Assembly: GCA_016212295.1 (NCBI GenBank)
Contig: JACRGO010000173.1
Location: forward strand, 1-39,523
DNA length: 39,523 bases
Reading direction: 5' to 3'
DNA from: Nitrospinota bacterium
GTDB taxonomy: Bacteria > Nitrospinota > Nitrospinia > JACRGO01
Shown in pieces: positions 5,901 through 24,002 of the stretch (positions are counted from its first letter, which is position 1; each line of letters opens with the position of its first letter). The position numbers and the translations under genes were made by a program. Below the pieces are notes generated by a model. It did no database searches, had not been told where the DNA came from, and saw only the letters and a program-made list of their open reading frames with translations.

Positions 5901-6552
5901 AAGAAATGGCCTTATTGATATTTCCCTTCTGTCTAATCCCTTCTCCTGCTTTACTAAAACATTAAGAGTCGAGAGAATGTATTCTCAATAGACAGGCCGG
6001 GTAGAATTGGCGGAACTTGTTCAGGTTGGGTATGAGAACCTCCGTCCGACTTTTTTGCTACAGTCTTGCGCCACAGACCATTTTTGCATGGCGGCCCTGG
6101 CCATATCCACCTCCCGCCGGTTGCCAAGCGAAGTCATGGTGTTGGTTCCTCAATCGGCAGGCGAATGCCGTAGCTGATGATGAAAGCGGTGAAACTTACC
6201 GGTCCCGGGGCTTGGGCATGGAGGGCGGGGAAGACATGCAATTCGATAGCGTCCACCGGCCCCCATCCCAACTCTTTTTTTTCTCTTCTTCCGCTGCGCT
6301 CATGGCGGCATTGCCATCTTCCGTGGTTTGGCAGGAATTTGCCTTTCCGAGGCTTTAAAAAAAGAAAAGTTTTTGGTGTTTATTGGGGGGCCTCCGAACC
6401 CCTCGCAAAGATTAGCAGAAAAGCGAATTCAAGTCAAAAACGTCCATGCTTTGTGTCCTTTATAAATTCTTTTGTATTGAAAACGCCTCGAATGAAAGAA
6501 TAAATTATGAAGCGGAAAATTCCATGTAAAAATTTCTTGTTAAAAATTTTTG
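5901..6552. other. Gene-free stretch with a possible unrecognised coding remnant
   Basis: No convincing gene. Between about 6040 and 6350 the DNA is G+C-rich. On the minus strand one frame, ending at a TGA at 6134-6136, reads protein-like for about 45 codons (for example PVDAIELHVFPALHA and later ISYGIRLPIEEPTP), but it has no ATG and I do not recognise it. Plus-strand open frames here have improbable composition. From 6360 to 6552 the DNA becomes AT-rich and leads into the promoter of the next operon. Confidence 0.35.
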
Positions 6553-6628: not shown

Positions 6629-7411
6629 ATGGCTGACGACAGAAAAGACCAATTACTGAAAAGAATAGAGGAGGCCAGGAAGATATCCCTGGCCCAACTC
6701 AGCGCGGAATTCGAGGTCTCGGAACTGACCGTACGGCGGGATTTAAAGCCCATGGAAGAATCCCAACTGGTCAAGATCGGCAAGGGCGAGGTCATCTATC
6801 TCCCTAATGACCCCCTGAACGGAACGCTTGAATTGGACCCTGGAGCAGGGGCGGTGGCGGAAATGGCCGCTTCCCTGGTATCTGAAAAGGACCGCATAAT
6901 TTGGATAGGCGGAGGGGACATCTCCCTGGGCATCGCAAGGAGGCTGGAAAATGTGACCCTGGTGACCAACTCCCTGCGCACCGCCACCGCCGCTCTCAAA
7001 AGAAAGGGCCTCAAGGTTTTTCTGGTTGGAGAGGAGGTGGACCCGGAAAGCCATTGTCTTTATGGAAAGTCGCTTGAAATGGTCCGGGAGTTCACATTCA
7101 ACAAGGCGTTTGTCGAGGCTGACGGCTACTTCAACAAACGCTTTCTTGCCACCGGCATGGCCGCTGAGACCGCGTCCCTTCTCTCCGGCAATGTCCTGGA
7201 AAAATTCATCGTCATCCATGGGAAAAATTTCGGGAACGTCCAAACAGCGCGCCTCACGGGATTGAGGGAGTTCAAGGCGGTCTGCACGGACACATTGAAG
7301 CGTTCGGTTTTACGGGAGGTGGAAAGCATCCCTCTCAAGGTGGTGTACCAAAGCGTCGAGGCAGAGGAACATGATGAAAAAATCATTCCTTTAAGGGCTA
7401 AAAACAATTAG
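6629..7411 (+). CDS. DeoR/GlpR-family transcriptional regulator
   Basis: 260 residues. An N-terminal winged helix-turn-helix (about 5-58) carries the family pattern KISLAQLSAEFEVSELTVRRDL. The C-terminal half is the DeoR sensor domain with LVTNSLRTATAAL, FNKAFVEADGY and a terminal LREFKAVCTD. DeoR proteins normally bind a phosphorylated sugar through an AGTT-type loop. Here that loop reads IWIGGGDISL, lacking the Thr pair, so the ligand may differ. It is followed after 17 bases by an FtsZ gene with its own strong ribosome site, not by sugar-catabolic genes. Regulation of its own operon and hence of FtsZ is a reasonable inference. Confidence 0.9.
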   Translation: MADDRKDQLLKRIEEARKISLAQLSAEFEVSELTVRRDLKPMEESQLVKIGKGEVIYLPNDPLNGTLELDPGAGAVAEMAASLVSEKDRIIWIGGGDISLGIARRLENVTLVTNSLRTATAALKRKGLKVFLVGEEVDPESHCLYGKSLEMVREFTFNKAFVEADGYFNKRFLATGMAAETASLLSGNVLEKFIVIHGKNFGNVQTARLTGLREFKAVCTDTLKRSVLREVESIPLKVVYQSVEAEEHDEKIIPLRAKNN

Positions 7412-7428
7412 TTAAAAAGGAGGCTGGT

Positions 7429-8598
7429 ATGATTACGTATGAGTCCGATCTGCACCAGGCAAGGATCAAGGTTTTCGGGATAGGCGGGGGCGGGGGCAAC
7501 ACGGTGAATTGCCTTGCCAGGAAAAAAGTCCGCGGGGTCAATATGTACCTGTTGAACACGGATAAGCAGGCGCTGAGCGTCTCCCAGGTGCCTAATAAAA
7601 TCGGATTAGGGCAATCCCTGACCAAGGGACTCGGGGCCGGGGCGAACCCGCAAATCGGCAGGGAAGCGGCTCTGGAGTCAGAGGGAGTTATAAAGAACAT
7701 GATGCAGGGGAGCGATCTCCTGTTCCTGGCTGTTGGCATGGGAGGCGGCACGGGCACTGGGGCCTCGCCGGAAGTAGCAAGGATCGCCAGGGAGGAAGGC
7801 ATCCTCACGGTTGCCGTCGTCACCCTTCCCTTTTCCTTTGAGGGCAAGAGGAGAATGGCCACTGCGCTCGAAGGACTTGAGAGACTCAAGGAGTACGTGG
7901 ACACAAGCATCATTATCGAAAACCAGAAAATAATGCCTCTCATCTGCAAAAGCTCAACAATGGGGGAGTCCTTTGAAATAGTGGATAACGTCCTTTGCCG
8001 GGCCGTCATGGCAATAACCGACCTGATAACCAAGCCGGGATTGATTAATCTTGATTTCGCGGATTTAAGATCAGTTCTCAAGGAAGGAGGCTCCGCCTTC
8101 ATGGTGACCGGCGCGGCGTCCGGCCGGGAAAGGGCCAAAAAAGCAGCGGCCCTGGCCATCCAAAGTCCCCTCATGATGCGGAATTCCCTGGAAGGGGCAA
8201 GAAGGATCATAATCAATATTTCCGGGAATTCGGAAATGACGCTGGAAGAGGTGGACGAGGCCGCGTCACTGGTCCATAAAAAGGCCGACGAGGAATGCCA
8301 CATCATTGTAGGCGCGGTGATAGATGAATACCTGGGGGATGAAATTCGCGTTACCGTGATAGCCACTGAATTCAATGATGAACTGGAGGAGGCGCACCAT
8401 CCAATCGGAATAAGCCACGGCGGGAGCCTGAAGGCGTCCTTATACACGGAAACCATTCTTTCGCAAAAACTGCCTAGTACGGTAAAAACGCTTTACGAAT
8501 CCTCAACCGGGAAAAAATTTGTCGCCCAGGAATCCAACCTGGATTGCCCGGCTTATCTAAGGAAAAAACGGGAGATGATGGATAAATCTCAGTATTGA
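7429..8598 (+). CDS. ftsZ: FtsZ cell-division GTPase (possibly a second copy)
   Basis: 389 residues. FtsZ forms the cytoplasmic division ring by GTP-dependent polymerisation. The GTP-binding parts are complete: VFGIGGGGGN at 16-24, NTDKQAL, the tubulin signature GGGTGTG at 105-111, and the T7 loop NLDFAD at 207-212 that completes the catalytic site of the next subunit. The end, LDCPAYLRKK at 371-380, resembles the conserved C-terminal peptide that binds FtsA/ZipA, so membrane-ring attachment is possible. The linker is short. RBS AAGGAGG lies eight bases before the ATG. No ftsA, ftsQ or mur genes are near; the only operon partner is a DeoR regulator. Whether it is the only FtsZ of the genome cannot be seen here. 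Confidence 0.93.
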   Translation: MITYESDLHQARIKVFGIGGGGGNTVNCLARKKVRGVNMYLLNTDKQALSVSQVPNKIGLGQSLTKGLGAGANPQIGREAALESEGVIKNMMQGSDLLFLAVGMGGGTGTGASPEVARIAREEGILTVAVVTLPFSFEGKRRMATALEGLERLKEYVDTSIIIENQKIMPLICKSSTMGESFEIVDNVLCRAVMAITDLITKPGLINLDFADLRSVLKEGGSAFMVTGAASGRERAKKAAALAIQSPLMMRNSLEGARRIIINISGNSEMTLEEVDEAASLVHKKADEECHIIVGAVIDEYLGDEIRVTVIATEFNDELEEAHHPIGISHGGSLKASLYTETILSQKLPSTVKTLYESSTGKKFVAQESNLDCPAYLRKKREMMDKSQY

Positions 8599-8790: not shown

Positions 8791-8904
8791 CTCAAGGAAA
8801 AAACTATAAAATTTTAATGCTGCAAGATTTCTTGCGCGATTTTTATTTATTGTCCTCCCGGGGCGGGTTTCAGGGAATTGCCCGGGGCATTTTGGAGAGG
8901 TCCA

Positions 8905-9651
8905 TTGGCGTCTTATCCAAAAGCGGCTCCGAAAAAGGTTTATTACCTGGTCAGAACGCGCTCTCTCTTTAGTTGCTTCCTGCACTGGGTCTTTTTCCTT
9001 TCAGTTGTTGTCCTTATCCTCACCGGCTTCTACATCGCCTCTCCGCTGTTGTTTCATGGACATGGAGAGGCGTTTCAGGCATACATCATGGGATACGCCA
9101 GACTGTCCCATTTCGTGGCCGCCACTTTTCTTATAGCAGGCTTTGCCCTTCGCCTGTATCTCTCCTTCTTCCTTTGCAGCCGCCACGATATCCTGGACAT
9201 CCTGCCGACCCCTAAAAATATCGCCGGGGCCGCCAAACTGGCCTTTTATTACCTCACCTTCCACGGTCCGCATCACATTTACAGATACGTAAATCCCCTG
9301 GGCGGGATAGGGGTTTTTTCCCTTATCACCTTCTGCGCGGTCCAGATAGGCACAGGATTTTTGCTCTATCTCCCATGCGCCGATCCCATTTTTTGGGGAG
9401 GGGCCGTTCCTTTGGCGCAGTCCTTGGTTTTGAAACTGGGAGGACTTCAATCGGTCCGCCTGATCCATCACATAGTGATGTTTTTCCTCATGGCCTTTAT
9501 TGTTATCCATGTTTATTTGCAGATTTGGAAGAACACCATGTTCGAAGAGGCGGACATTGCCTCAATTTTTTCCGGATACAAGATGTTCCCGGAAGAGATA
9601 GTCAGGGTGTTTGACAAGGGGTTCGAGTCTTATGAAGTAAAGGAAGAATGA
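8905..9651 (+). CDS. hyaC: Hydrogenase cytochrome b subunit, first copy (HyaC-like)
   Basis: 248 residues from the TTG at 8905, preceded by GGAGAGG at 8894-8900. This start is supported because the resulting MASYPKAAPKK opening parallels MASIIPTPKIPK of the second cytochrome b downstream. Membrane protein with about four hydrophobic helices and histidines suited to haem b: LHWVFFLSVV, RLSHFVAATF, QSVRLIHHIVMFF, and VIHVYLQIW near the end. It anchors the periplasmic hydrogenase dimer and passes electrons to the quinone pool. It precedes the small subunit gene, which is unusual since hyaC normally follows the large subunit. A 126-base repeat-filled gap separates it from the small subunit gene. 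Confidence 0.88.
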   Translation: MASYPKAAPKKVYYLVRTRSLFSCFLHWVFFLSVVVLILTGFYIASPLLFHGHGEAFQAYIMGYARLSHFVAATFLIAGFALRLYLSFFLCSRHDILDILPTPKNIAGAAKLAFYYLTFHGPHHIYRYVNPLGGIGVFSLITFCAVQIGTGFLLYLPCADPIFWGGAVPLAQSLVLKLGGLQSVRLIHHIVMFFLMAFIVIHVYLQIWKNTMFEEADIASIFSGYKMFPEEIVRVFDKGFESYEVKEE

Positions 9652-9777: not shown

Positions 9778-10887
9778 ATGGAACAAAAGGAATTCATGGA
9801 AAAACATAAAATGCTTTACAGCCTGGACCGGAGGGAGTTCATGCTTTTTTGCACGAAAATAGCCGCTGTGCTTGGTCTGGCCCCTTCATTCATTCCAAAA
9901 ATAGCCGAGGCCATTGAGGAGGGCGCGAAAAAACCCTCTGTCATCTGGCTGCACCTGGCCGAGTGCACAGGGGACAGCGAGGCGTTCATCCGGAGCACAT
10001 ATCCCTCCATTGAGGAACTGGTCCTTAACATCCTGTCGGTTGATTACCACGAGACCATCATGGCGTCCGCCGGCGATCAAGCCGAGGAACTCCTTGAAAA
10101 AGTCATGCGCGAAAACAAGGGAAAATACCTTGCCATACTGGAGGGGGCCATACCAACCGGCACTCCCCCTGGACCAGGAGGCAAGCCCGGCGGATTTTTA
10201 ACCATCGGAAAACGCACCGGGATGGAACTGGCGAGGGAGGTTTGCTCGAACGCCTTCGCCGCAATATGCGTTGGGACCTGCTCATGCTTCGGCGGCGTGC
10301 AGGCCCAATACCCAAATCCAACAGGGGCAAAAGGGGTAGAGGACGCCATAGGCGTTCCCACCCTCAAGATCCCGGGCTGTCCGCATAACGTTGTCAATTC
10401 CGTTGCCACGGTGGTCAACTTCCTGCTCCTTGGCTCCCTGCCCAGGACCGATAAATACGGCCGTCCCCTCTTCGCTTATGGAAAGAGAATCCACGACCAT
10501 TGTCCAAGGCGGGCGCACTTCGACGCGGGCCAATTCGTGGAAAAATTCGGGGACGAGGGGGCGATGAACAGATATTGCCTGTACAAGATGGGGTGCAAGG
10601 GACCGCAAACCTACCACAACTGCTCCCTGGCGGAGTATAACGACGGCACATCCTGGCCCGTGAAGGGAGGGCACGGGTGCATAGGCTGCTCGGAACCGAA
10701 TTTCTGGGACGACATGGCCCCGTTCTACGAGAGGCTGCCGGACGTCAAATTGCCAGGAGTCGAGGCCACGGCGGACAAGGTGGGATTTGCGCTGGTTGGG
10801 GCAGCGGCGGCGGGCGCCGCCGTCCACGGCGCTTACACTTTCATCAACCGCGGAAAATTCAGAAACCGCGAAGAAGAAAAGGAGTAA
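9778..10887 (+). CDS. hyaA: [NiFe] hydrogenase small subunit, group 1-type, with Asp at a proximal-cluster Cys position
   Basis: 369 residues from ATG 9778 (good site AAAGGGGG; a TTG 18 bases earlier is less likely). A twin-arginine leader DRREFM (Arg 18-19) predicts Tat export. Cluster ligands are readable: distal His239, Cys242, Cys267, Cys273; medial Cys282, Cys301, Cys304; proximal Cys63, Cys168 and Cys201. The fourth proximal ligand, Cys in the usual ECTGCSES motif, is Asp66 (ECTGDSEAF). There is an additional Cys170 (GTCSC). The C-terminus has one hydrophobic anchor (about 335-355) and a basic tail. With the large subunit it oxidises H2 in the periplasm. No maturation genes (hyp, protease) are in the window. 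Confidence 0.95.
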   Translation: MEQKEFMEKHKMLYSLDRREFMLFCTKIAAVLGLAPSFIPKIAEAIEEGAKKPSVIWLHLAECTGDSEAFIRSTYPSIEELVLNILSVDYHETIMASAGDQAEELLEKVMRENKGKYLAILEGAIPTGTPPGPGGKPGGFLTIGKRTGMELAREVCSNAFAAICVGTCSCFGGVQAQYPNPTGAKGVEDAIGVPTLKIPGCPHNVVNSVATVVNFLLLGSLPRTDKYGRPLFAYGKRIHDHCPRRAHFDAGQFVEKFGDEGAMNRYCLYKMGCKGPQTYHNCSLAEYNDGTSWPVKGGHGCIGCSEPNFWDDMAPFYERLPDVKLPGVEATADKVGFALVGAAAAGAAVHGAYTFINRGKFRNREEEKE

Positions 10888-10890
10888 AAA

Positions 10891-12552
10891 ATGGGCACAC
10901 GGCATGTGATTGATCCTATCACCAGAATCGAAGGCCATCTCCGGATAGAAATAGAGGTGGAAGACGGAAAGGTCAAGGACGCATGGAGCAGCGGGACCCT
11001 TTGGAGGGGCTTCGAGGTTTTCCTCAGGGACCGCGATCCGAGGGACGCATGGATCATCACCCAGCGCGCCTGCGGCGTCTGCACCACGGTCCACGCCCTT
11101 GCCTCGGTGCAGTGCGTGGAAAACGCCTTGGGGATACAAGTCCCGGACAACGCCCGCCTGGTCCGCAACCTTATCATGGGCGCGCAATACCTTCACGACC
11201 ACCCGGTGCATTTTTACCATCTCCACGCCCTGGATTGGGTCGATATCGTATCGGCCCTGAACGCCGACCCCAAGGCGGCAAGCGATCTGGCCTATTCCAT
11301 TAACCCCAACGCGCCCAAATCCGGCGCGGGTGATTTCCAGGCCGTGAAGGAAAAGCTCGCCCATTTCGTCAACCGGGGCCAGTTGGGTCCATTCGACAAC
11401 GCCTATTGGGGACATCCGGCGTACAAGCTTCCGCCAGAGGCCAACCTGATGGCCGTGTCGCACTATCTGGACGCCCTGGCCCTTCAGGCAAAGGCCGCTC
11501 GGATGCACGCCATCCTCGGCGGAAAGAACCCGCATATCCAGACCTATACGGTGGGCGGGGTGACATGCGTGGCCGACCTCAATCCTGACCGGCTCGGACA
11601 ATTTCTGTACATTCTCAGGGAGGTAAAGTCCTTTGTTGAGAACGTGTACCTGCCGGACGTACTGGCTGTTGCGCCTTTTTATCTGGATTGGGCCTCCATC
11701 GGCGGCGGCCTGAGGAATTATCTGAGCTATGGACTCTATCCTCAAAAGGGGGGCAAGGAGCCGGAGAATCTCTTCTTCCCCAGAGGCGCGGTATTCGACA
11801 GAGACCTGTCCAAGGCCCATCCTGTGTATGAGGGAAAGATCACGGAAGAAGTCACGCATTCATGGTATAAATACACGGAGAACAAGCCCCTGCATCCAAG
11901 CGTTGGGCAAACTGACCCTTGGTACACCGGCATCGAGACTGAAACGGACGGAAAATATTCCTGGCTCAAGACCCCGAGGTACGAGGGAAAGGCCATGGAG
12001 GTGGGGCCGCTGGCGAGGATGGTGGTGAATTACGCCTCTGGACACAAACCCACGGTTGAAGCGGTGAGCGGTGTTTTAAGGAAATTGGGGCTGGGTCCTG
12101 AGATACTTTTCTCGACCCTGGGCAGGACCGCAGCCAGGGCCATCGAGACCAAGATCATGGCTGACGCAATGGAGGGGTGGCTCAACGAACTGCTAGGCAA
12201 CATCAAAAAGGGGGACATGGAGACGTGCGTGGACGCGCCCATGCCGGATTCAGCCGCCGGTTTCGGAATGACCGAGGCGCCGCGCGGGGCCTTGGGGCAT
12301 TGGATCAATATCCAGGGAAAGAAAATACGGAACTACCAGATGGTGGTGCCAAGCACCTGGAACGGCTCGCCCCGCGACGCCCAGGGCCTGCGGTCTTCCT
12401 TTGAGGAGGCGCTTATCGGCACCCCTGTGGCCGACCCCAAGCGTCCCCTGGAGATATTGAGGACCATTCATTCATTTGATCCTTGCCTGGCCTGCGCGGT
12501 CCATATCATAGACCCAAGGACAAACGAAGTGTATAAAGTGAGGGCGGTGTAA
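10891..12552 (+). CDS. hyaB: [NiFe] hydrogenase large subunit, group 1-type
   Basis: 553 residues, ATG three bases after the small-subunit stop with AGGAG in front. It holds the NiFe active site: RACGVCTTVH gives Cys61 and Cys64, and DPCLACAVH gives Cys532 and Cys535. All four nickel ligands are Cys, so it is not a NiFeSe enzyme. The 15 residues after His538 are the expected propeptide removed by a hydrogenase-specific endopeptidase, whose gene is not here. The family pattern IDPITRIEGHLRIE at the N-terminus is intact. It travels folded with the small subunit through Tat. A long antisense open frame over this gene is a codon-bias shadow. Confidence 0.97.
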   Translation: MGTRHVIDPITRIEGHLRIEIEVEDGKVKDAWSSGTLWRGFEVFLRDRDPRDAWIITQRACGVCTTVHALASVQCVENALGIQVPDNARLVRNLIMGAQYLHDHPVHFYHLHALDWVDIVSALNADPKAASDLAYSINPNAPKSGAGDFQAVKEKLAHFVNRGQLGPFDNAYWGHPAYKLPPEANLMAVSHYLDALALQAKAARMHAILGGKNPHIQTYTVGGVTCVADLNPDRLGQFLYILREVKSFVENVYLPDVLAVAPFYLDWASIGGGLRNYLSYGLYPQKGGKEPENLFFPRGAVFDRDLSKAHPVYEGKITEEVTHSWYKYTENKPLHPSVGQTDPWYTGIETETDGKYSWLKTPRYEGKAMEVGPLARMVVNYASGHKPTVEAVSGVLRKLGLGPEILFSTLGRTAARAIETKIMADAMEGWLNELLGNIKKGDMETCVDAPMPDSAAGFGMTEAPRGALGHWINIQGKKIRNYQMVVPSTWNGSPRDAQGLRSSFEEALIGTPVADPKRPLEILRTIHSFDPCLACAVHIIDPRTNEVYKVRAV

Positions 12553-12629: not shown

Positions 12630-13325
12630 ATGGCATCAATCATCCCAACGCCGAAAATCCCCAAGCAGGTGGTGAGGGTCCGCAACGCCACCAACCGGGT
12701 CCTGCATTGGCTGGTGTTTTTCGCGGTCATTGACCTTCTAATAACCGGCTACTACATCGGGAACCCCATCCTTGCATACGGCCAGGGGGAGGCATACCAG
12801 GCAACCATCATGGCGGACATTCGTTTCTACCACTTCATAGGCGCCATGGTCCTGGATATCTGCATCATGCTCCGGGTCTATCTGGCCTTCTTCTCTCTCT
12901 ACCACCGCGACTGGCATGAACTCATGCCGACGCCAGGAAACCTGAAGGGGGCCTTTGGAATCATAAAGAGCTACCTCACGTTCAGGAAGCCGCCTTTTTT
13001 CAGATATGTTGATCCTTTTGACGGCATGATGTTCCTTGTGCTCCAGCTTCTGATGGCGCTTCAGTTGTTCACCGGGTTCCAGATTTACGTCCACGGTCTG
13101 GCGCCGGATTACTGGTGGGCGCGGGTGATTCATTTCGGCACGGACTGGACCCTTTGGGCCTTCGGGAGCGCGCAGCACGTGCGGATGGTCCATCACTTGG
13201 TCCAGTGGATCGTCGTCTCCGGGATAATCTTGCATGTGTATATCCAGGTGATAAAGACGGTCATCTGGGAGGACGGCCACATCTCCGCCATCTTCGGAGG
13301 GTATAAATACAAGAATATGGAGTAA
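12630..13325 (+). CDS. hyaC: Hydrogenase cytochrome b subunit, second copy (HyaC-like)
   Basis: 231 residues. Same family as the cytochrome at 8905, with matching landmarks: VLHWLVFFAVIDLLITGYY, RFYHFIGAMV, MPTPGNLKGA, RYVDPFDGM, VRMVHHLVQW and ILHVYIQVIK. Four membrane helices and haem-ligand histidines are visible. It lies 77 bases after the large subunit, the usual hyaC position. Having a cytochrome b on each side of the dimer suggests duplication, with either two alternative electron exits or a heterodimeric anchor; which one is inference. The ribosome site is weak. Confidence 0.92.
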   Translation: MASIIPTPKIPKQVVRVRNATNRVLHWLVFFAVIDLLITGYYIGNPILAYGQGEAYQATIMADIRFYHFIGAMVLDICIMLRVYLAFFSLYHRDWHELMPTPGNLKGAFGIIKSYLTFRKPPFFRYVDPFDGMMFLVLQLLMALQLFTGFQIYVHGLAPDYWWARVIHFGTDWTLWAFGSAQHVRMVHHLVQWIVVSGIILHVYIQVIKTVIWEDGHISAIFGGYKYKNME

Positions 13326-13587: not shown

Positions 13588-15003
13588 TTATTTTGATTGC
13601 GGCCTTGCAGCGCCATGCAAGTCTGTCTTTTTATACTTCCCTATCAGCTCACGGCTGATCCTGATCCACTCCGATTCCGGCAATATGTTAAGCAGTTCCC
13701 ACCCTGCGTCCAGGGTCCCGGTGATGGTCCTGCTTTCCGGCCCCTGGTGGATGAACTCCTTCTCAAAGGCGTCCGCGAACCGCAAATACTTCCTGTCTGT
13801 TTCCGATAGCCCCTCTTCCCCGATAATCGAGGCCACGCGCCTCTGCTCCACCCCTCTGGCATGGCCCATGTAAAGCTGGTCCGCCAACTGGCGGTGGTCC
13901 TCCCTGGTGCGGTCGAGCCCTATCCCCCTGTCCATAAGCCTGGAAAGGCTGGGGAGAACGTTTATTGGAGGGAAAATCCCCTTGCGGTGGAGTCCGCGAT
14001 CGAGAACGATCTGCCCTTCGGTGATGTATCCCGTGAGGTCCGGGATGGGATGGGTGATGTCGTCATCCGGCATGGACAGAATGGGGATTTGCGTGATGGA
14101 GCCGGCCTTTCCCTTGATCCTTCCCGCGCGCTCATAGATGCTCGCAAGGTCGGTGTACATGTAACCCGGATATCCACGGCGGCCGGGAATCTCCTCGCGC
14201 GAGGAGGAAACCTCCCGCAAGGCGTTGCAGTAGTGGGTCATGTCCGTCAACACCACCAGGACCTGCATGCCCATGTCGAAGGCGAGATACTCCGCTGCGG
14301 TGAGGGCGAACCGTGGAGTCAGTATGCGCTCTATGACCGGATTATCCGCCAGGTTGATGAATACCACTGAGTGCTCGATGGCGCCGGAATTATTAAATGA
14401 ACTCTTGAAATAGTCCGCCTCCCTGGAAGTGATGCCCATGCCGGCGAAGACAAGGGCGAATTTTTCGTCCTTGCGCTGGACCCCGGCGTTTCCGATGATG
14501 TGGTTGGCCATCTCGTTGGCAGGGAGACCGGCGCCGGAAAATATTGGTAGCTTCTGTCCGCGCACCAGGGTGTTGAGTCCGTCAACCGCTGAAAGCCCGG
14601 TCTGGATGAAGTCCCTTGGAAGGTCACGCCGCACCGGATTAATGGCTGGACCGTGGACGTCCCGCCTTGCCAATGGCGGGACCGGCGGCAGGCCGTCAAT
14701 GGGCTCCCCTCCACCGGAAAAGACCCGCCCTAAAACCAGGGGGGATAGGTCGAACTTGGCCCCTTCCTCGTGAAAGCGGATTACCGTGGTCTCTGGATTT
14801 ATCCTCTCGGTCTTGCCGAAGACCTGGACAACAGCGTACTTCTCGCTGACCTCGATGATCTGGCCTGTCCGTATGTCCCCTTCACTCAAATAAAGCGAGG
14901 CAAGGTCCTCAAGGGCTGTGTTCCCTGCGGCACGGACGAAGACCAGCGGGCCTCGAACCGACTCAATGGACCGGTGCTCCCTATATAGTAAATCGTTGGA
15001 CAT
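13588..15003 (-). CDS. atpB: V/A-type ATPase subunit B
   Basis: 471 residues, the regulatory nucleotide-site subunit of the V/A-type rotary ATPase head. The loop that is a Walker A motif in subunit A reads [13 protein letters not shown] here, the normal non-catalytic form. Other landmarks are [18 protein letters not shown] and [21 protein letters not shown]. Last of four ATPase genes on this strand (C-F-A-B). Subunit D, which normally follows B, is absent: downstream lie repeats and the convergent hydrogenase operon. A 234-base repeat-filled gap separates it from subunit A. Confidence 0.96.
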
Positions 15004-15055
15004 GGGCTTATATAAAATTTAGTTAATAGCGCGGCATGGCAGCAGCCATAGCGGA

Positions 15056-15211
15056 AACAAAACTACAAATTGCAAATGACAAATTACAAATAAATCTCAA
15101 TAACCAAAATTACAAATAACAAACAAGGAAATGGAATTGTTTTGGATATTCGATAATTGTAATTTGTAATTTATTTGTAATTTGTTGTTTGTCATTTGGA
15201 ATTTTGTTTTA
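15056..15211. repeat. Inverted CAAATTACAAATAAA repeat inside the ATPase operon (family B)
   Basis: Left arm about 15056-15100 (with AAATGACAAATTACAAATAA) and right arm about 15165-15211 (with TTATTTGTAATTTGTTGTTT) are mutually complementary, giving a potential hairpin of about 40 pairs with mismatches. It separates subunits A and B. Confidence 0.75.
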
Positions 15212-15237
15212 ACTTTTTGCGGCAAGGCTTAGGCGTC

Positions 15238-16986
15238 TCAGCGGTTAATGGATTCAAAAAAATGCTTCAGACCGGCGCGGAAGTCCGTTATCTCTTCACC
15301 TAAACTTTCCTCGGAAATTTCCTTCAGGCGGAGCAGCCTTTCCACGAGAGGGGACTTCGCGATCTCGTCCATGGACATCCCGCGCTCCACGGCCTTGAGC
15401 ATTGCGTCTATATATTCCAGAAAGAGCGAAAGCATCTTCTCCTGCCTTTTGATGGAACAATAAGCGTCAGTGGGGTGGACCGCGCTCTGCCTCAAATATC
15501 CTTCACGGATCAGCCGGGCCGCTTCCAGGTCGGCCCGCTCACGGTCCTCCATCGCGTCCGCTCCTACTATCTTGAGCACTTCGGATAGTTCCTCCTCCCT
15601 TTGCAGGATTGCGTGGGTCCTGCCGATCATCTCCGGCCATTCCCCTCCCACTTTTTCCCTGTACCACGCCATCATCCTGGGATAGGCTAGACTGAAACTC
15701 GTCCGCCAGTTGATGGCCGGGAAATGCCGCTGATAGGCCAGTTCGTAATCCAGTTCCCAAAAGGTGGAGGCCATTCGCAGCGACGCCTGGGTCACGGGTT
15801 CGGAAAAATCCCCTCCCGGCGGAGACACGGCCCCGATGACCGTGATGGAGCCTGTTTCCTGGTCCCGGCCTTGTATCCTCGCCCTGCCCGCGCGCTCGTA
15901 AAAGGTCCCGATACGGCTCGCAAGGTAGGTCGGGTATCCCTCTTCTCCGGGAATTTCCTCAAGCCTGGAGGATATCTCGCGCAGCGCCTCGGCCCAACGC
16001 GAGGTGCTGTCAGCCAGCATGGCAACGCGGTATCCCATGTCCCGGTAATATTCCGCGATGGTGACGCCGGTGTAGATGGACGCCTCGCGGGCCGCGACCG
16101 GCATGTTGGAAGTGTTGGCTATGAGGATGGTCCGCTCAAGGAGCAGCTTGCCCGTGTGCGGGTCTTTTAGTTTCGTGAGTTGATGGAGGGTATCGGCCAT
16201 TTCATTCCCACGCTCGCCGCAGCCGATATAGATGATGACGTCCGCTTGCGCGTATTTGGCTATGGTCTGCTCCAGCACCGTCTTGCCTGTCCCGAACCCG
16301 CCGGGAATGATGGCCGCCCCGCCCTCGGCCACCGGGAAAAGGGTGTCAACGGCCCGCTGTCCGGTAATCATCGGGACCATGAGAGGGAGTCTTTCCGACC
16401 TGGGGCGAGGCTCGCGGATGTTCCATCGCTGCCTCATCTTTATTTCCGTCCCGTCTTGCAGGACAGCCACGATGTCGCTTATGGCGAGGTCTCCTTCCGC
16501 CACTGTTTTCACAACGCCCTTCATGCCTTCGGGGACCATGATCTTATGGAGGATGTGTTCGCTTTCCTGGACGGTCCCGATCACGAATCCGTATTCCACT
16601 GCGTCGCCCGGTTTCACAACGGGCTTAAAGGCCCACTTTTTTTCGCGGTCCAGCCGATGTATGAGCGCCCCCCTGTGGATGAAGTCCCCCCAGTGTTCAG
16701 CCAGACCCGGCAAGGGGCGTTGTATGCCGTCGAAAATCCCTCCAAGGAGGCCGGGCCCAAGCTCCACTGAAAGGAGTTCACCGGTCCGCTCCACCGGATC
16801 GCCTGCCTTTAGTCCAATAGTGTCCTCATAGACCTGGACAATGGCGGTGTCTCCTTCGATCCTGATGATCTCACCGATCAACTTGTCCTTGCCGGCTCGC
16901 ACCACTTCTCCCATGAAGCAGCCGAACATATTGCCTGCCTGGACAGCCGGGCCTGAGACTTTTATTATTTTGGGTGTGTGTTTCAT
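15238..16986 (-). CDS. atpA: V/A-type ATPase catalytic subunit A
   Basis: 582 residues, the catalytic subunit of the V/A-type ATPase. The Walker A motif GGFGTGKT is at 229-236, followed by IIYIGCGERGNEM; the non-homologous region characteristic of A subunits lies between about 110 and 190. LADSTSRWAEALREISSRLEEIPGEEG-like catalytic segments are intact (abbreviated as LADSTSRWAEAL). Length is normal for bacterial A subunits. Whether the enzyme makes ATP or pumps ions cannot be told, because the rotor ring gene is not in the window. Confidence 0.97.
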   Translation of the reverse strand: MKHTPKIIKVSGPAVQAGNMFGCFMGEVVRAGKDKLIGEIIRIEGDTAIVQVYEDTIGLKAGDPVERTGELLSVELGPGLLGGIFDGIQRPLPGLAEHWGDFIHRGALIHRLDREKKWAFKPVVKPGDAVEYGFVIGTVQESEHILHKIMVPEGMKGVVKTVAEGDLAISDIVAVLQDGTEIKMRQRWNIREPRPRSERLPLMVPMITGQRAVDTLFPVAEGGAAIIPGGFGTGKTVLEQTIAKYAQADVIIYIGCGERGNEMADTLHQLTKLKDPHTGKLLLERTILIANTSNMPVAAREASIYTGVTIAEYYRDMGYRVAMLADSTSRWAEALREISSRLEEIPGEEGYPTYLASRIGTFYERAGRARIQGRDQETGSITVIGAVSPPGGDFSEPVTQASLRMASTFWELDYELAYQRHFPAINWRTSFSLAYPRMMAWYREKVGGEWPEMIGRTHAILQREEELSEVLKIVGADAMEDRERADLEAARLIREGYLRQSAVHPTDAYCSIKRQEKMLSLFLEYIDAMLKAVERGMSMDEIAKSPLVERLLRLKEISEESLGEEITDFRAGLKHFFESINR

Positions 16987-16994
16987 TTTTAAAA

Positions 16995-17153
16995 GATAGG
17001 TGTCAGGTTTCAGGTTTCAGGGGTCAGGGGTCAGGGGCAGAGGGCATGTTAAAAGCATCTTCGCGCGTTTGTAGCAGCCCATGCGAATGGGCTTTTCTCT
17101 CGCTAAATTAAGCCGCCTGCTCCCTGCTCCCTGAAACCTGATCCCTATATCTT
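16995..17153. repeat. CAGGTTTCAGG / CCTGAAACCTG inverted repeat with inner hairpin
   Basis: The left arm (16998-17040, TCAGGTTTCAGG and repeated GGGGTCAG) and right arm (17118-17150, CTCCCTGAAACCTGATCCC) are complementary. Between them is a compact hairpin AGCCCAT-GCGA-ATGGGCT (17076-17093) with a GNRA-type tetraloop followed by TTTTC. It fills the gap between ATPase F and A. Confidence 0.7.
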
Positions 17154-17495
17154 AATCCTTATATGAAACCCAATGGCGCGAAAGACCATCTCTTCAGTGA
17201 AGAGCTCCGCCTCCGGGGCGAGGCTCCACTTTTCGGGGAAAGTGTATCGCGCCAGGAGGGGGAACTGGGATTGTTTCAGCGCCTTTTTGTTTTTATCCGA
17301 GATACAATCTTCCATGTCCTTTGGAATGGCAAGGATGCCCACCGCTTTTTCCTCCAGGACCCGCTCGATTTCAGCGTTAAGCCCTTCCTTGCCGGAAACA
17401 GCCGACACCTGGGCGCCTCCCAGCCGGAACCCCGTCTCCTGTCCCCAATGGGATATCACTTTAAATATTTTTGTTTGGGACACGGCAAAAACCAA
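17145..17495 (-). CDS. atpF: V/A-type ATPase subunit F
   Basis: 116 residues. Subunit F is a small central-stalk protein that binds subunit D. The Rossmann-like pattern is present: GFRLGGAQVSAV, then EEKAVGILAIPKDM and the PLLARYTFPE region. The N-terminus seems a little longer and less typical than usual (FKVISHWGQETG in place of an AVIGD-type strand), but there is no obvious better internal start. Its position between C and A is the standard order. Identity rests on pattern plus position. Confidence 0.82.
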   Translation of the reverse strand: MVFAVSQTKIFKVISHWGQETGFRLGGAQVSAVSGKEGLNAEIERVLEEKAVGILAIPKDMEDCISDKNKKALKQSQFPLLARYTFPEKWSLAPEAELFTEEMVFRAIGFHIRIKI

Positions 17496-17504
17496 TAAAA
17501 TTTT

Positions 17505-17577
17505 AGATTTACAATTTTAAATTTTAGATTTGTTAAGATTTTTTTATGCCTCTCAAATCTCAAATTTTAAATTTCAG
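17505..17577. repeat. AAATTTTAGATTT-type repeat (family B) between ATPase C and F
   Basis: Loose units TTTTAGATTT, AATTTTAAATTT and CTCAAATCTCAAATTTTAAA fill the entire 82-base gap and begin right at the subunit C stop codon. Confidence 0.7.
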
Positions 17578-18594
17578 TCATTCCCTCGCCATGCAAAATT
17601 GCTCCAGCGCTTGTTCCGGCGGCGCGCCGGCGGACCCAAAATATATGGCCAGCTTAAGGTCAGCCACCATGGCCTCCATTCCTTCCATGAAATACAAAAA
17701 GGCCCATATCCCGGAAGGCTCCAGCAGATTTTTCATACGGTAGCCGTGAAGCAGGGCCTTCTTCAATTCACGTGAAAACCTGATACTGGACGTCTCAAAG
17801 GCAGGGTCAAGGTTTATCCCGATTTTCTTCCTGGCGATGTTAGCCGCTTGTCCTGGCGCGCCTTTCGCGATCCGCATAAATTCCGCTTCGGTTATTCTGC
17901 CCGGCCCGCTGATAAAAATCTGCTCGGAATTGCCTTCTTCCAGCGGGCTTTCCCGTAGCAAAAAGGCGTTATGAATATTCAACAGGTCCAACTGGTCCTG
18001 GAAGTAGGTTTGGGACGGCTTCAAAAGCATCGACTTTTCCGGGATGAAACCGTTGAAGAAATTCCGCTCCATCTCCAATTCGGCCCTTACCCTGTCCCTG
18101 GAATAAAGCTCCGGGTCAAAAAAGGAGGCCAGGGGGTGCCCCTTATGTTCAAGGGAGGCCAGGAATTGAGCCGGTGTTTTGTCCGCCTCCCATAGATGGC
18201 CCGGCTTGGCGTCCAGCATGTAGGAGATGAAAGTGAAACGCCTTTCATAAGCGGCCCCGCCGGAGGAAAGGTACCGCAACGCGGCCTTGACCTCCTCCAA
18301 CTCCCATCGGGCGAGGAGGAGGGAGAAGGCTTCGGGAAAAGCCTGCTTCACGAGCCGGGAAAAAAACCGGCGAAGGCGGATATGCCCATTATGCGCCGCC
18401 CTTAAAACTATGGGGAGTGTGATCTTGGTTTCCGACTTGGCGATAAAGGATTCCGCCTCTTCCTTGAAAACGGTATCGGACAAAAGGGAAAGCAAGCTTC
18501 CGGCGTCCCTGGTTTCCACGACCCGGACCAGAAAGTCCACGCCAGGGAAACGGCTTTTCAGGGCTGCGAGTCTGGTAACGGCATAATCAATCAT
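17578..18594 (-). CDS. atpC: V/A-type ATPase subunit C (AC39 family)
   Basis: 338 residues. Subunit C couples the central shaft to the membrane ring. The family is weakly conserved, but the all-helical composition, length, the ARWELEEVKAALRYL segment with its acidic-basic helix, the YFQDQLDLLNIHNAFLLRE region and the position at the head of C-F-A-B agree. Upstream genes for E, K and I, which normally precede C, are missing: a 696-base repeat-rich stretch and then selD on the other strand follow. The ATG at 18594 touches the boundary of a D-family repeat. Confidence 0.88.
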   Translation of the reverse strand: MIDYAVTRLAALKSRFPGVDFLVRVVETRDAGSLLSLLSDTVFKEEAESFIAKSETKITLPIVLRAAHNGHIRLRRFFSRLVKQAFPEAFSLLLARWELEEVKAALRYLSSGGAAYERRFTFISYMLDAKPGHLWEADKTPAQFLASLEHKGHPLASFFDPELYSRDRVRAELEMERNFFNGFIPEKSMLLKPSQTYFQDQLDLLNIHNAFLLRESPLEEGNSEQIFISGPGRITEAEFMRIAKGAPGQAANIARKKIGINLDPAFETSSIRFSRELKKALLHGYRMKNLLEPSGIWAFLYFMEGMEAMVADLKLAIYFGSAGAPPEQALEQFCMARE

Positions 18595-19290: not shown

Positions 19291-20373
19291 ATGAACCCTT
19301 TGTTCAGTTCGCTCCTTCGGCCTTTTCTGAGGCCGGGCGAAAACAAAAAGGTGAGGCTTACAACGTTGACCAAGGCGGCCGGCTGAGCGGCAAAATTGGG
19401 TCCGTGCGACCTGAAAAAGACATTGGACGCCTTTAAAGCGCATTGCGGGGAAAACGTGCTGGTGGGCTTGTCCGCCCTGGACGACGCCGGGGTCGTGAAG
19501 TTGAGCGATGACCTGGCCATCGTGCAGACGGCGGACTTTATAACGCCCGTGGTGGATGATCCATTCCAGTTCGGCAGGATTGCCGCGGCCAATTCCTTAT
19601 CGGACATCTATGCCATGGGCGGCAAGCCCCTTTCCGCCCTCAACCTCGTCTGCTGGCCCTCGAAGCTTTCTGGCGAGATATTAAGGGAGGTCCTCCAGGG
19701 CGGAGAAGATGCCGCGCAAGAGGCTGGATGCACCATCATTGGCGGACACACCATCGAGGACGATGAACCCAAATACGGCATGGCCGTCAACGGCACGGTA
19801 CATCCCGGCAGAATTTTAAGGAACATCGGCGCCCTCCCGGGCGACGCCTTGTATCTGACAAAGCCATTGGGAATCGGCGTTCTCTCCACCGCGCTTAAGT
19901 TCGGCAAGACAACGCCTGAGGAGTCGAAGACGCTGGTCGAAACCATGTCCGCCCTGAACAAGGACGGCTCGGAGGCCGCATTGGCGGCTGGCGCCAGGGC
20001 CATGACCGACATAACCGGCTTCGGCCTGGCCGGGCACCTGCTGGAAATGCTTGGGACCGGAAGTTATCTTGGAATAGAGATAAGCGCCAAGGCGCTGCCT
20101 CTTCTGCCGGGCCTTATGAAACACCTTGGCGGCGGGACGATACCTGGAGGAGTGGAGCGCAATTTCATGGTCGTGGAGGAAAAACTCCGGATAGACAAAG
20201 AGGTTGACCCGGCCTACAAATGCATAATATGCGATCCTCAAACCTCCGGCGGCCTGGCCATAGCCGTTCCGCCTGAAAAGGAGGATGCCTTCGCAAAAGA
20301 GGCTTCCATGCGTGGAGTAAAGGCCGTAAAGGCGGGCTTTTTCAATGATACGGGGGTCATATTATTACGTTGA
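19291..20373 (+). CDS. selD: Selenophosphate synthetase SelD, a selenoprotein with in-frame UGA (Sec32)
   Basis: 360 residues if UGA at 19384-19386 is read as selenocysteine. It makes selenophosphate from selenide and ATP, the donor for SelA. The frame from ATG 19291 (site AAGGAAG) runs LTTLTKAAG, then UGA, then AAKLGPCDL and onward through DDAGVVKL, FGRIAAANSLSDIYAMGG, IIGGHTIED, TDITGFGLAGHLLEM and a PQTSGGLAIAV end, all typical. The UGA falls exactly where the catalytic Cys17 sits in E. coli SelD, two residues before the essential Lys (here Lys35). A simple stop would split an otherwise intact gene, and the Sec machinery is adjacent. The natural TGA stop at 20371 lies within a repeat. Confidence 0.95.
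19396..19414 (+). promoter_or_regulatory. Candidate bacterial SECIS hairpin of selD
   Basis: The mRNA segment can pair UUGGGUC with GACCUGA (seven pairs, two of them G-U) around the loop CGUGC at 19403-19407. The loop is 16 bases after the UGA, at the near end of the spacing I recall for bSECIS elements recognised by SelB. The loop contains G-U, but I cannot score the fold, so this is a candidate. Confidence 0.4.
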
Positions 20374-20437
20374 TAAATTTGCGTTTTCCGCGCAAATTTA
20401 TCAACCGTTTCTTGGAGCGCGCATGGCCGCGCTATGT
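20361..20437. repeat. REP-like bipartite hairpin, family D copy 2 (best copy)
   Basis: First hairpin: TTGATAAATTTGCG (20370-20383) with loop TTTTCCG and perfect partner 20391-20404. Second hairpin: AGCGCG (20416-20421) / CGCGCT (20428-20433). The selD stop codon TGA at 20371-20373 lies inside the first stem, and the selB ATG follows six bases after the second. Confidence 0.85.
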
Positions 20438-20438
20438 T

Positions 20439-22409
20439 ATGAACAACAATACAACGCCAATGGTCCTGCCGGTGATGGTTGGGACCGCCGGGCATGTGGA
20501 CCACGGCAAAACCAGTCTGGTGCGGAACCTGACCGGATTCGACACGGACCGCCTCCGCGAGGAAAAGGAGAGGGGTCTTAGCATCGATATAGGCGTCGCT
20601 CCCTGTCGCCTCCCGGACGGGCGCATGGCGGGGATTATCGACGTGCCGGGCCATCTGGACTTCATCAGGAACATGGTCGCCGGAGCTTCCTCCATCGACG
20701 TCTTGATTCTGGTTATAGCAGCCGACGACGGCGTCATGCCACAGACAAAGGAGCACCTGGAAATAGTCAGGATGCTCCGAGCCCCAAGGGTCATGGCTGT
20801 CCTCACGAAAATTGATTTAGTGGACAAGGCCGCGCTGGAACTCGCCAGGGCTGAAGCGGCCGGTTTTTTGAACGCCTCAGGTTTTCCTGACGCGCCGGTT
20901 GTTGGCGTGTCCAATCAGACAGGCGAAGGCATGGACGACGTCAGGAAAACCGTGGAAAGGCTGGTGGCAGAGGTGGGCCGGCCCCGCGACGCGCGCGCGT
21001 TCCGCATGAGCGTCCGCAATTGCTTCCTGATGAAGGGACACGGCGCGGTATTGACAGGAGTCCCGGTTTGCGGCGAGGTAAAACTCGGCGCGGACCTGGA
21101 GATACTTCCTACTGGGACGCAAACCAGCCTCCGCTCCGTCCAGAACTATCGCCATGCAACTGATACGGCCCAGGAGGGCATAAGCGCAGGCCTCAATTTG
21201 CGGGACGTCTCGCCAGGGGACATAAAGCGCGGCATGATCGTTGCCGTCCCAAACATATATAAACCCACTGCCTCCGCGATTGTTTTCTTTCGTAACGCCT
21301 CGGATGGCTTCACATTCAGGCGCGCAACGGAGGTAAGGTTTCACTGCGGGACCTCGGCGACTCCCGCCGGCGGCAAACTCATCGGCAAAAAAGAATTGCC
21401 CCCGGGCGAAACGGCCTTCATGCGGATAAAGTTCAGGGAGCCGCTGGTTGCAGCCGCAGGAGATCGGTTTCTCCTGCGCCGCTTGTCTCCATCCGCCACT
21501 CTTGGGGGCGGCGTTGTGTTGTCCGCCAGGGACTATCTACCGCAGCGGACCTCGCCCTTTCTCACGCAAAGGCTCCGCTTGGCCCAGGAGGCGCTGGAAA
21601 ACCAGGACTATTTTTTATCGGAGCTCCTCGCCGGCCCGGAACCGACGCTGCAAACGCCGGAGCTGCTCCGCCTGACCCAGCGCCCTGTCCAGGAGGCGGA
21701 AAAACTCGTGGAGGAAAAACAAAAACGCGGGGAAATCAAAGACCTCGGCGGAGGCGGCTGGCTTGCCACGGCAAGGATTAACGAGGTCCGCCTGAACATA
21801 AAAAATCGCCTGATACATTATCATGAGGACAATAAATATACCTGGGGCATGGAGCCTGGGTATGTGTGCAAGCTCCTTGGACTGGACCCGGCAAGTTTTG
21901 AAAAACTATTCAGCGCAATAGGCGGCGCAAAGGAATTCGCGGTAAGGCACGGGCGCCTGGCGCTCAAGGACTTCCAGCCGGCGATTGACGCAAGGCTGAT
22001 TAAACTGCGTGACCGTATACTTGAGCGCCTTGCCCAGTCAAGCCCTAATTGGACGGCCAGGAATACTCTGGCCGGGGAACTGGGGATAGCCAGGGCCGAC
22101 ATGAAAATTCTCCTCAAACTTCTTCAGGAAGAAGGGTCCATTCACACCATGGGAAATTATTTTCTGCTGCCCGGTTCCCTGGACCATTGCAGGGAAACCC
22201 TTCTCCGGCTTTTTAGCCGGACCCCTGAGGTGGAGGTCGGCATGTTCCGCGAGGCAGCCGGACTTTCCCGCAATCCGGCCATCGCCATCCTGGAGGCATT
22301 TGATTCCGAGGGACTGACCAGGCGGGTCGGAGACACGCGGGTCCTTATGAAATCAAGGAGCGGAAAAAATTCAAAAATTGAAGCTCAAACCGGCAACCGT
22401 GAACTGTGA
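20439..22409 (+). CDS. selB: Selenocysteine-specific elongation factor SelB
   Basis: 656 residues from ATG 20439; an ATG at 20460 (MVLPVMVGTAGHVDHG) is equally plausible, whereas an open reading further upstream is only translated repeat. SelB brings Sec-tRNA to UGA codons marked by a SECIS. The GTPase domain has GTAGHVDHGKTS (G1), DVPGHLDF (G3) and LTKIDL (G4). Translation-factor beta-barrels follow, then C-terminal winged helices (about 400-656, for example LAGELGIARADMKILLKLL) that bind the SECIS RNA. No clear ribosome site is visible for either start. The last few residues look like run-through into low-complexity DNA. Confidence 0.95.
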   Translation: MNNNTTPMVLPVMVGTAGHVDHGKTSLVRNLTGFDTDRLREEKERGLSIDIGVAPCRLPDGRMAGIIDVPGHLDFIRNMVAGASSIDVLILVIAADDGVMPQTKEHLEIVRMLRAPRVMAVLTKIDLVDKAALELARAEAAGFLNASGFPDAPVVGVSNQTGEGMDDVRKTVERLVAEVGRPRDARAFRMSVRNCFLMKGHGAVLTGVPVCGEVKLGADLEILPTGTQTSLRSVQNYRHATDTAQEGISAGLNLRDVSPGDIKRGMIVAVPNIYKPTASAIVFFRNASDGFTFRRATEVRFHCGTSATPAGGKLIGKKELPPGETAFMRIKFREPLVAAAGDRFLLRRLSPSATLGGGVVLSARDYLPQRTSPFLTQRLRLAQEALENQDYFLSELLAGPEPTLQTPELLRLTQRPVQEAEKLVEEKQKRGEIKDLGGGGWLATARINEVRLNIKNRLIHYHEDNKYTWGMEPGYVCKLLGLDPASFEKLFSAIGGAKEFAVRHGRLALKDFQPAIDARLIKLRDRILERLAQSSPNWTARNTLAGELGIARADMKILLKLLQEEGSIHTMGNYFLLPGSLDHCRETLLRLFSRTPEVEVGMFREAAGLSRNPAIAILEAFDSEGLTRRVGDTRVLMKSRSGKNSKIEAQTGNREL

Positions 22410-22428
22410 ACTTACGTCTGGAATTAAT

Positions 22429-22523
22429 GGAGGCGGGCAGCGCCTGGTGGCGCTCGCGGTCTTCAAAACCGTTGTGGAACCGGCAAGGTCCCAGGTGGGT
22501 TCGATTCCCATGCGCCTCCGCCA
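22429..22523 (+). tRNA. selC: tRNA-Sec (anticodon TCA)
   Basis: 95 bases including encoded CCA. Acceptor GGAGGCG pairs with CGCCTCC; anticodon loop CTTCAAA with TCA at 22463-22465; long variable arm GTGGAACCGGCAAGGTCCCA-type; T-arm GTGGG TTCGATT CCCAT. The length, extended variable arm and UGA-reading anticodon are diagnostic. The eighth acceptor pair is a G-G mismatch as I fold it. It lies between selB and selA, followed at once by a T8 run. Confidence 0.95.
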
Positions 22524-22583
22524 ATTTTTTTTAAATAAAAACAATTTAACCGCTTTAGCTCACTTTAAACTTTAATTGGAAAA

Positions 22584-24002
22584 ATGAACAAGGATATTTC
22601 TGAAATTCTGCGAAGGCTTCCGTCCATTTCCGATTTCCTGAAAACGGATGTAGGATCGGGCCTGGGCAAGGACTTCGGCGAAGGAGCGCTTAAGCTGGAG
22701 CTACGCCGTCTGCTGGAGGAAATCCGCTCCAGGGTACGCGAGCAAGGGACGGACTCCGTTTCTGATCTGGAAGAACTCGGCTCCACGCTCAGGGAACGCC
22801 TGGAGCGATTGACAAGGCCCATTGGCCGCAGGGCCATCAACGCCACCGGGATTATCCTGCACACCAACCTTGGAAGGGCGCCTTTGTGCGAGGAGGCAGT
22901 CGAGGCGGTGTCGTCCCTGGCCCGCTATTCCGTTCTCGAAATCGGCGTCGAATCAGGCAAAAGGTCCCATCGCGATGAATATATCGAGCCGCTCATCATG
23001 GAACTAACCGGATGCGAGGCAGCGGGCATAGTCAACAATAACGCGGCCGCCGTAATGATCATCTTGAACACCCTGTTCAAGGGCAGGGAGGTCCTCATCA
23101 GCCGTGGGCAGCTTGTGGAAATCGGCGGCGCCTTCAGGATGCCGGACGTAATGGAGGGCAGCGGCGCGATCATGCGAGAGGTTGGGACCACCAATAGGAC
23201 CCATATCAGGGATTACGAGGACGCGTTCACCGAAAATACCGGCGGCATAATGCATGTGCACAACAGCAATTACCGCATCATAGGCTTCGCCGGCGCGCCG
23301 GACGTCAAGGAATTATGCGGACTTGGGAAAAGAAGAGGGATTCCGGTGGTGGATGATTCAGGCGGCGGCGCCCTTTTTCCCATGAGTCAATTTGGTCTGC
23401 CGGATGAGCCGTTGGTCCAGGACTCAATCAAGGCCGGGGCGGACGCCGTGTGCTTCAGCGGAGACAAACTGATAGGCGGGGCGCAGGCGGGCATTATATG
23501 CGGGAAAAGGGAAACCATTGAACGCATGAGGAAAAATCCCTTTGCCAGGATGTTCCGGGCGGACAAAATGGCGCTCGCGGCCTTGCGGGCCACCCTTGTC
23601 CATATAGTCAACGGCGATTTGGCCCGCATCCCCCTCTATAAAATGCTGGCAAGAAAGGTCGAGGAACTGGAGGACCAGGCCTGGAAAATCGCCAGTTCGC
23701 TGGCCGGTTTAAAAGGCGTGGAGTTATCGGTTGATGATGGTCTGGCGTACGTGGGAAGCGGCGCCATGCCGGATGAAGGCGTCCCAAGCAAGGTCGTGCG
23801 CGTGCGGGCCGCGAACGCCGGAAATCCATTCTCAGCGGAAAAAAAGGCCCGCCGATTGCGCGAATCCCTCCCCGCCGTCTTTTGCCGCGTACAGGACAAC
23901 TCCCTTCTCTTCGACATGCGCACTCTCCAGCCGGAAGAGCCGGACTATCTGGCCAAGGTATTAAGAGAAGTTCTGACCCCGCCGGGCCGAGAAAAGGAGT
24001 AA
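22584..24002 (+). CDS. selA: L-seryl-tRNA(Sec) selenium transferase SelA
   Basis: 472 residues. The PLP enzyme converts Ser-tRNA(Sec) to Sec-tRNA(Sec) using selenophosphate. The N-terminal domain has RAINATGIILHTNLGRAPL. The PLP lysine is in CFSGDKLIGGAQAG near residue 295, and VNNNAAAVMIILNTL and EVGTTNRTHIRDYE are typical. It ends with an AVFCRVQDNSLLFDMRTL region. Its length fits the bacterial enzyme. It completes the compact selD-selB-tRNA-selA locus on one strand. Confidence 0.97.
   Translation: MNKDISEILRRLPSISDFLKTDVGSGLGKDFGEGALKLELRRLLEEIRSRVREQGTDSVSDLEELGSTLRERLERLTRPIGRRAINATGIILHTNLGRAPLCEEAVEAVSSLARYSVLEIGVESGKRSHRDEYIEPLIMELTGCEAAGIVNNNAAAVMIILNTLFKGREVLISRGQLVEIGGAFRMPDVMEGSGAIMREVGTTNRTHIRDYEDAFTENTGGIMHVHNSNYRIIGFAGAPDVKELCGLGKRRGIPVVDDSGGGALFPMSQFGLPDEPLVQDSIKAGADAVCFSGDKLIGGAQAGIICGKRETIERMRKNPFARMFRADKMALAALRATLVHIVNGDLARIPLYKMLARKVEELEDQAWKIASSLAGLKGVELSVDDGLAYVGSGAMPDEGVPSKVVRVRAANAGNPFSAEKKARRLRESLPAVFCRVQDNSLLFDMRTLQPEEPDYLAKVLREVLTPPGREKE

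Follow-up and report, generated by a model that had tools for sequence, protein, structure and literature searches.

Aspartate at a proximal-cluster ligand position in a clade of [NiFe] hydrogenases related to group 1b

The small subunit of a [NiFe] hydrogenase encoded in a Nitrospinota genome fragment (the 39,523 nucleotides of contig JACRGO010000173.1, here called the window) has an aspartate, Asp66, where canonical enzymes have the second cysteine of the proximal CxxC motif, and all sampled members of its clade share this residue. Weighing the evidence, we think it somewhat probable that this is a Tat-exported, cytochrome-b-anchored, H2-uptake enzyme related to group 1b, in which a 3Cys-1Asp proximal [4Fe-4S] cluster shifts the redox or proton behaviour. 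The features of the locus are collected in Table 1.

Table 1. Hydrogenase genes, proximal-cluster codons and neighbouring genes in the window
Feature	Position	Strand	Remarks
DeoR-type regulator and FtsZ gene	6629-8598	+	directly upstream of the hydrogenase operon
b-type cytochrome, upstream anchor	8878-9651	+	TTG start in ORF list; TIGR02125, PF01292
Hydrogenase small subunit	9778-10887	+	369 aa; TIGR00391, AlphaFold/fold match
Cys63 codon, first proximal ligand	9964-9966	+	
Asp66 codon, second proximal ligand position	9973-9975	+	GAC
Cys168 codon, third proximal ligand	10279-10281	+	
Cys170 codon	10285-10287	+	not conserved across the window clade
Cys201 codon, fourth proximal ligand	10378-10380	+	
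His203 codon	10384-10386	+	invariant in the window clade
Hydrogenase large subunit	10891-12552	+	NF033181, 616 bits (cut-off 600)
Second b-type cytochrome, downstream of the large subunit	12630-13325	+	PF01292
V/A-type ATPase subunit genes	13588-18594	-	convergent to the hydrogenase operon
selD, selB, tRNA-Sec and selA cassette, complete	19396-24002	+	tRNA-Sec at 22429-22523

The protein is a group 1 [NiFe] small subunit, with a score of 394.3 bits against the model TIGR00391 (hydrogenase small subunit; cut-off 179.5). Its AlphaFold model, which does not contain the cluster (mean pLDDT 80.8), had the [NiFe] hydrogenase of Desulfovibrio vulgaris Miyazaki F as the closest fold (Z 29.5, rmsd 2.0 over 253 residues). 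Residues 62-69, encoded by positions 9961-9984, read ECTGDSEA, including E62, C63 and D66. The first-pass annotation had reported this replacement of a proximal-cluster cysteine, with the remaining proximal ligands Cys168 and Cys201 and all the medial and distal ligands intact; the codon and the relatives bore out the replacement, and the alignment the intact ligands, the medial set being C282/Pro294/C301/C304 and the distal set His239/C242/C267/C273. Its further statements, that the six-Cys pattern of O2-tolerant enzymes is absent and that the enzyme has a Tat leader and cytochrome b anchors, also held. The two extra cysteines that define the six-Cys pattern of group 1d, at positions 65 and 173 (Cys19 and Cys120 of Hyd-1), are present in the group 1d rows L089 and L090, and both positions are glycine in the window. 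The protein begins with a twin-arginine, Tat-type leader (R18R19) and has a C-terminal helix (residues 332-356).

The operon consists of the small- and large-subunit genes, in this order, with a cytochrome b gene on either side. The upstream cytochrome scored 130.8 bits against TIGR02125 (cut-off 121.5) and also matched PF01292; the downstream one scored 62.4 bits against PF01292 (cut-off 30.1) and 113 bits against TIGR02125, just below its cut-off. The large subunit has intact L1 (RACGVC) and L2 (DPCLAC) motifs, with cysteine at every position and no selenocysteine. The gene order is kept in five relatives (L004 to L008), and its upstream half in L012; for the Spirochaetia members of the clade, the search of the flanks gave no upstream cytochrome. 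Hydrogenase maturation proteases are encoded elsewhere in the genome. Neither the DeoR-type regulator nor the FtsZ gene recurred beside the operons of the relatives whose flanks were examined. The selenocysteine cassette lies about 6 kb downstream of the operon, although the hydrogenase of the window uses cysteine.

Putative selenocysteine was seen in the large subunits of relatives. At 41 loci (L013-L017, L020-L022, L029, L052, L064, L040, L105, L144, L172-L189, L191, L192 and L194-L200), many of them from Nitrospirota (Thermodesulfovibrionia) and others from Chloroflexota and Desulfobacteraceae, the L1 motif RxCGxC has an in-frame TGA in place of each of its two cysteine codons (RIUGVU). The frame and the homology continue on both sides of these codons, which in L013 lie just before position 6020, and in those of the loci that were folded, hairpins resembling one another lie some 20 nt downstream. 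As read from these sequences, L1 appears to bring two selenocysteines to the [NiFe] site; in known NiFeSe enzymes the selenocysteine is in L2. Searches by term in two selenoproteome reviews returned no L1 motif with two selenocysteines, but the feature may be partly known already, as the NCBI model NF033181 is named NiFeSe_hydrog. Another set of loci (L027, L028, L031, L033, L035, L051, L055, L060, L107, L145 and a second copy in L052), mostly from Desulfobacterales with an all-Cys proximal cluster, has TGA only at the second L1 cysteine (RSCGVU and similar), which is likewise a putative selenocysteine. The putative L1 selenocysteines do not track the Asp, Asn or Cys state of the proximal site.

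The relatives were aligned from eighty genome loci and additional genome searches (L-numbers denote aligned loci or rows). The window clade consists of 11 distinct rows from Nitrospinota, Nitrospirae and two Spirochaetia MAGs, and forms one side of a branch with a support of 99. Asp66 is encoded in it by both GAC and GAT, is kept at identities to the window sequence down to 57%, and is never replaced by asparagine. Because the residue is fixed with synonymous codons over this range of identities, it represents neither a sequencing error nor chance. A neutral or relaxed change in a decaying gene, or an error of sequencing or assembly, is accordingly extremely improbable: the reading frame is undisrupted, the other ligands and the active-site motifs are all intact, and nothing was found in its favour. 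The first-pass annotation had envisaged a clade sharing Cys-X2-Asp together with a Cys-X-Cys motif formed by the additional Cys170. The former motif is indeed common to the clade, but Cys170 is not: it is present in the window, L004, L005 and L009/L084, and is replaced by serine in L006-L008, L010, L011 and L103 and by glycine in L012, all of which retain Asp66. Cys170 was therefore rejected as an obligate fourth ligand. Besides the cluster ligands, the only cysteine columns conserved in the clade are 25, 156 and 164. Cys164 (in CVGTC), which the first-pass annotation did not mention, could be an alternative ligand, as could His203.

Replacement of this cysteine as such is already published: asparagine or aspartate was described in the group 1f enzymes of Roseiflexus, Geobacter and Frankia, and asparagine in mesophilic Methylacidimicrobium (Mohammadi et al. 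2017, PMC5364354), and aspartate is also on record for group 1h. Among 223 small subunits, which were picked as relatives of the query and whose counts are thus no measure of natural frequencies, the pair at positions 63 and 66 is most often Cys/Cys (92 sequences), followed by Cys/Asp (64), Cys/Asn (59) and Asp/Cys (8). The text of the HydDB paper contains no ligand data. In the Asp/Cys rows (L085-L087, L203-L205, L208 and L210) the swap is reciprocal, with aspartate as the first and cysteine as the second proximal ligand (SDTGC); cysteine replaces the medial proline (position 294) in the six of these rows that were inspected there, and judging from this residue the medial cluster of these six enzymes is likely all-Cys. 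Another hydrogenase small subunit of the genome to which the window belongs, also with aspartate at the same site (CGGD), was observed at L003 (1513-2490; own genome C9:11686-12507), where it adjoins an aroA-like gene and has HucS as its closest PDB match.

What is new is the position of the window clade. In trees built with the ligand columns removed, it was separate from a 50-row Asp/Asn clade of Geobacteraceae, Nitrospirae, Acidobacteria and Chloroflexi, which we assigned to group 1f from its taxonomic make-up and the description by Mohammadi et al. (2017, PMC5364354). The window clade grouped instead with the Cys-type enzymes of Desulfobacterales and D. vulgaris, as the sister of this 1b/Desulfobacterales clade and not within it (support 88; 99 together with L086). 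The window small subunit shares with group 1f the trait of aspartate or asparagine in place of one proximal cysteine, but in the trees the enzyme fell outside that group, and membership of groups 1d, 1h and 2a was rejected. With the small subunit alone, a single Asp/Asn clade was not rejected (AU p 0.203); with the small and large subunits concatenated, a common origin with the 1f-like clade was rejected under LG (AU p 0.0175) and, with fewer rows, under a mixture model (AU p 0.0039). Since the references from groups 1c, 1d, 1e and 1a all have cysteine, two gains of aspartate give the shortest history. An early ancestral aspartate with later reversals to cysteine may also account for the distribution, with more steps. 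On these trees, the aspartate of the window clade most likely arose independently of that in the 1f-like enzymes. Within the 1f-like clade, aspartate and asparagine, the codons of which are one base apart, have replaced each other many times, 11-12 changes being forced by well-supported branches, with almost no other consistent difference between the two kinds of enzyme.

A second residue is linked to the replacement. Two residues past the ligand Cys201, 61 of the 92 Cys/Cys enzymes have a proline, Pro203, which all 131 others lack. The direction of this association was never reversed, but it comprises only 5-6 independent contrasts, and a sign test was not significant. In the window clade the residue is histidine throughout (C201-P-H203); it is cysteine in many Geobacter-type Asp enzymes, valine in HofK and alanine in HucS. 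We read Pro203, from this distribution, as a packing constraint that would be relaxed before the cysteine can be lost, so that its loss, here to His203, probably makes room for Asp66 or helps to position it; an added role of His203 as a ligand is possible. A further reading takes another side chain, with His203 as the best candidate, to be the fourth ligand itself, leaving Asp66 only to hydrogen-bond the cluster or His203. The invariance of His203 in the clade, the complete absence of Pro203 from enzymes without the Cys/Cys pair and the occurrence of Cys203 in Geobacter-type enzymes are in line with such a ligand, but many Asp/Asn enzymes have Val, Met, Ala or Leu at position 203, and HofK has valine, so that this residue is no general ligand, and we regard this reading as quite doubtful. 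When the large subunit was inspected for compensating residues, several clade-specific ones appeared (F41, F44, N138 and others), of which none was tellingly shared with the 1f-like Asp enzymes.

In the mechanism that we prefer, Cys63, Cys168 and Cys201, most likely with the carboxylate of Asp66, would hold a proximal [4Fe-4S] cluster. H2 would be split at the NiFe site, and the cytochromes b would receive the electrons by way of the proximal, then the medial and then the distal cluster. Oxygen ligation and the altered charge would change the potential of the proximal cluster, its proton coupling and the ease with which it loses one iron, thereby tuning the passage of electrons from the NiFe site through the medial [3Fe-4S] cluster and the distal cluster with its His ligand, into the flanking cytochromes b and on to the quinone pool. 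Ferredoxins with an aspartate ligand have shifted potentials, possible proton coupling and a ready loss of the Asp-bound iron. We infer the bond between Asp66 and iron from HofK; the type of cluster, the direction of the redox shift and any benefit to the cell are also inferences.

The main alternative concerns the iron content of the cluster. Asp66 might not bind iron stably, so that the proximal cluster would be [3Fe-4S], or would interconvert with [4Fe-4S], and act as a relay of higher potential that biases the enzyme towards H2 oxidation. HucS, which has C-S-G-N at the same site of the alignment and three [3Fe-4S] clusters, suggests that an Asp enzyme could likewise hold [3Fe-4S], and the repeated exchange of aspartate and asparagine suggests that the carboxylate is not essential in the 1f-like clade. 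Against this, HofK (5AA5) has aspartate at the site, reported to coordinate a proximal [4Fe4S] cluster, and no sampled member of the window clade has asparagine in place of the aspartate. We consider this alternative rather unlikely, and retain the 3Cys-1Asp [4Fe-4S] cluster as the preferred reading. More speculative, and improbable in our judgement, is a general account in which group 1 hydrogenases repeatedly and independently lost the all-Cys proximal site, each time in enzymes without Pro203, and in which the window clade would have a new, proton-coupled ligand set of an uncharacterised type, such as three cysteines with Asp66 and/or His203.

Finally, the aspartate could be an adaptation that gives O2 tolerance, as a third design in addition to those of the six-Cys cluster and of group 1h; such a benefit is compatible with any of these types of cluster. 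Published work connects the O2 tolerance of group 1h with its Asp coordination (PMC7174314; PMC6813726), and the Hya enzyme (1f) of Geobacter has been linked to oxidative stress defence. In addition, the genome encodes six genes of the heme-copper oxidase superfamily above the cut-off, which makes an O2-respiring life style possible. However, H2 respiration by Methylacidimicrobium strain 4AC, which belongs to the mesophilic strains for which an Asn-type, 1b-like enzyme was described (PMC5364354), took place only below 40 uM O2, and the hydrogenase of this strain was called O2-sensitive (PMC6813726). Many Asp and Asn enzymes, moreover, come from groups that are mostly anaerobic, for example Geobacteraceae and Thermodesulfovibrionia. 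The swap alone is thus no marker of O2 tolerance, and we regard the adaptation as unlikely. The first-pass annotation had proposed a separate solution to O2 exposure or redox tuning: the separateness stands in the evolutionary sense, from the 1f-like clade on the two subunits combined, the O2 part is unsupported in view of the O2-sensitive enzyme of Methylacidimicrobium, and redox tuning appears to be the more likely half of the proposal.

The proximal cluster helps to decide whether electrons are supplied to the NiFe site fast enough for it to survive O2, and it influences the bias of the enzyme. That HofK is O2-insensitive while Methylacidimicrobium has an O2-sensitive Asn-type enzyme argues that loss of the fourth cysteine does not by itself bring O2 tolerance. 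The independent origins, the exchange of aspartate and asparagine, the reciprocal Asp/Cys enzymes and the linked loss of Pro203 together provide a natural series that could serve to separate the effect of one ligand from that of the enzyme background.

Among the known systems, the nearest Cys-type sister is group 1b (D. vulgaris Miyazaki F and Desulfobacterales), which the window enzyme resembles in fold, medial Pro294 and distal His239. The sampled 1b relatives have Cys66 and Pro203, whereas the window clade has Asp66, His203 and two flanking cytochromes b; its Asp66 departs from the four proximal cysteines of group 1b, for which a published 1b-like exception exists. With the 1f-like enzymes (the Hya type of Geobacteraceae, and those of Acidobacteria, Chloroflexi and Thermodesulfovibrionia) it has in common the Asp/Asn site and the absence of Pro203, but the clades are separate, and the residue is labile in the one and fixed in the other. 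The first-pass annotation had pointed to 3Cys-1Asp proximal coordination in the group 1h enzyme of Ralstonia eutropha, and HofK of this enzyme does have C-D-G-D at the same site, corresponding to the C-x-G-D of the window, and this aspartate is reported to coordinate the proximal [4Fe4S] cluster (PMC7174314). The window protein, however, matches 5AA5 with only 95 bits, lies in a separate clade outside 1h by sequence, and has a Tat-type leader, cytochrome b anchors and a medial proline where HofK has a cysteine. Huc of Mycobacterium smegmatis (group 2a, 7UUR) resembles the window enzyme in lacking a cysteine at the site and in having a Cys-X-Cys motif where the third ligand lies, but the residue at the site in HucS is asparagine, the enzyme is an oligomer on a stalk, it is remote in the tree, and all three of its clusters are [3Fe-4S], an assignment based on the density and on which residue takes the fourth coordinating place, and supported by EPR (PMC10017518); the window enzyme does not belong to group 2a. 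The 1b-like enzyme of Methylacidimicrobium, compared here by its published description, likewise has a non-Cys proximal ligand, which differs in being asparagine and not aspartate, in an enzyme that is O2-sensitive.
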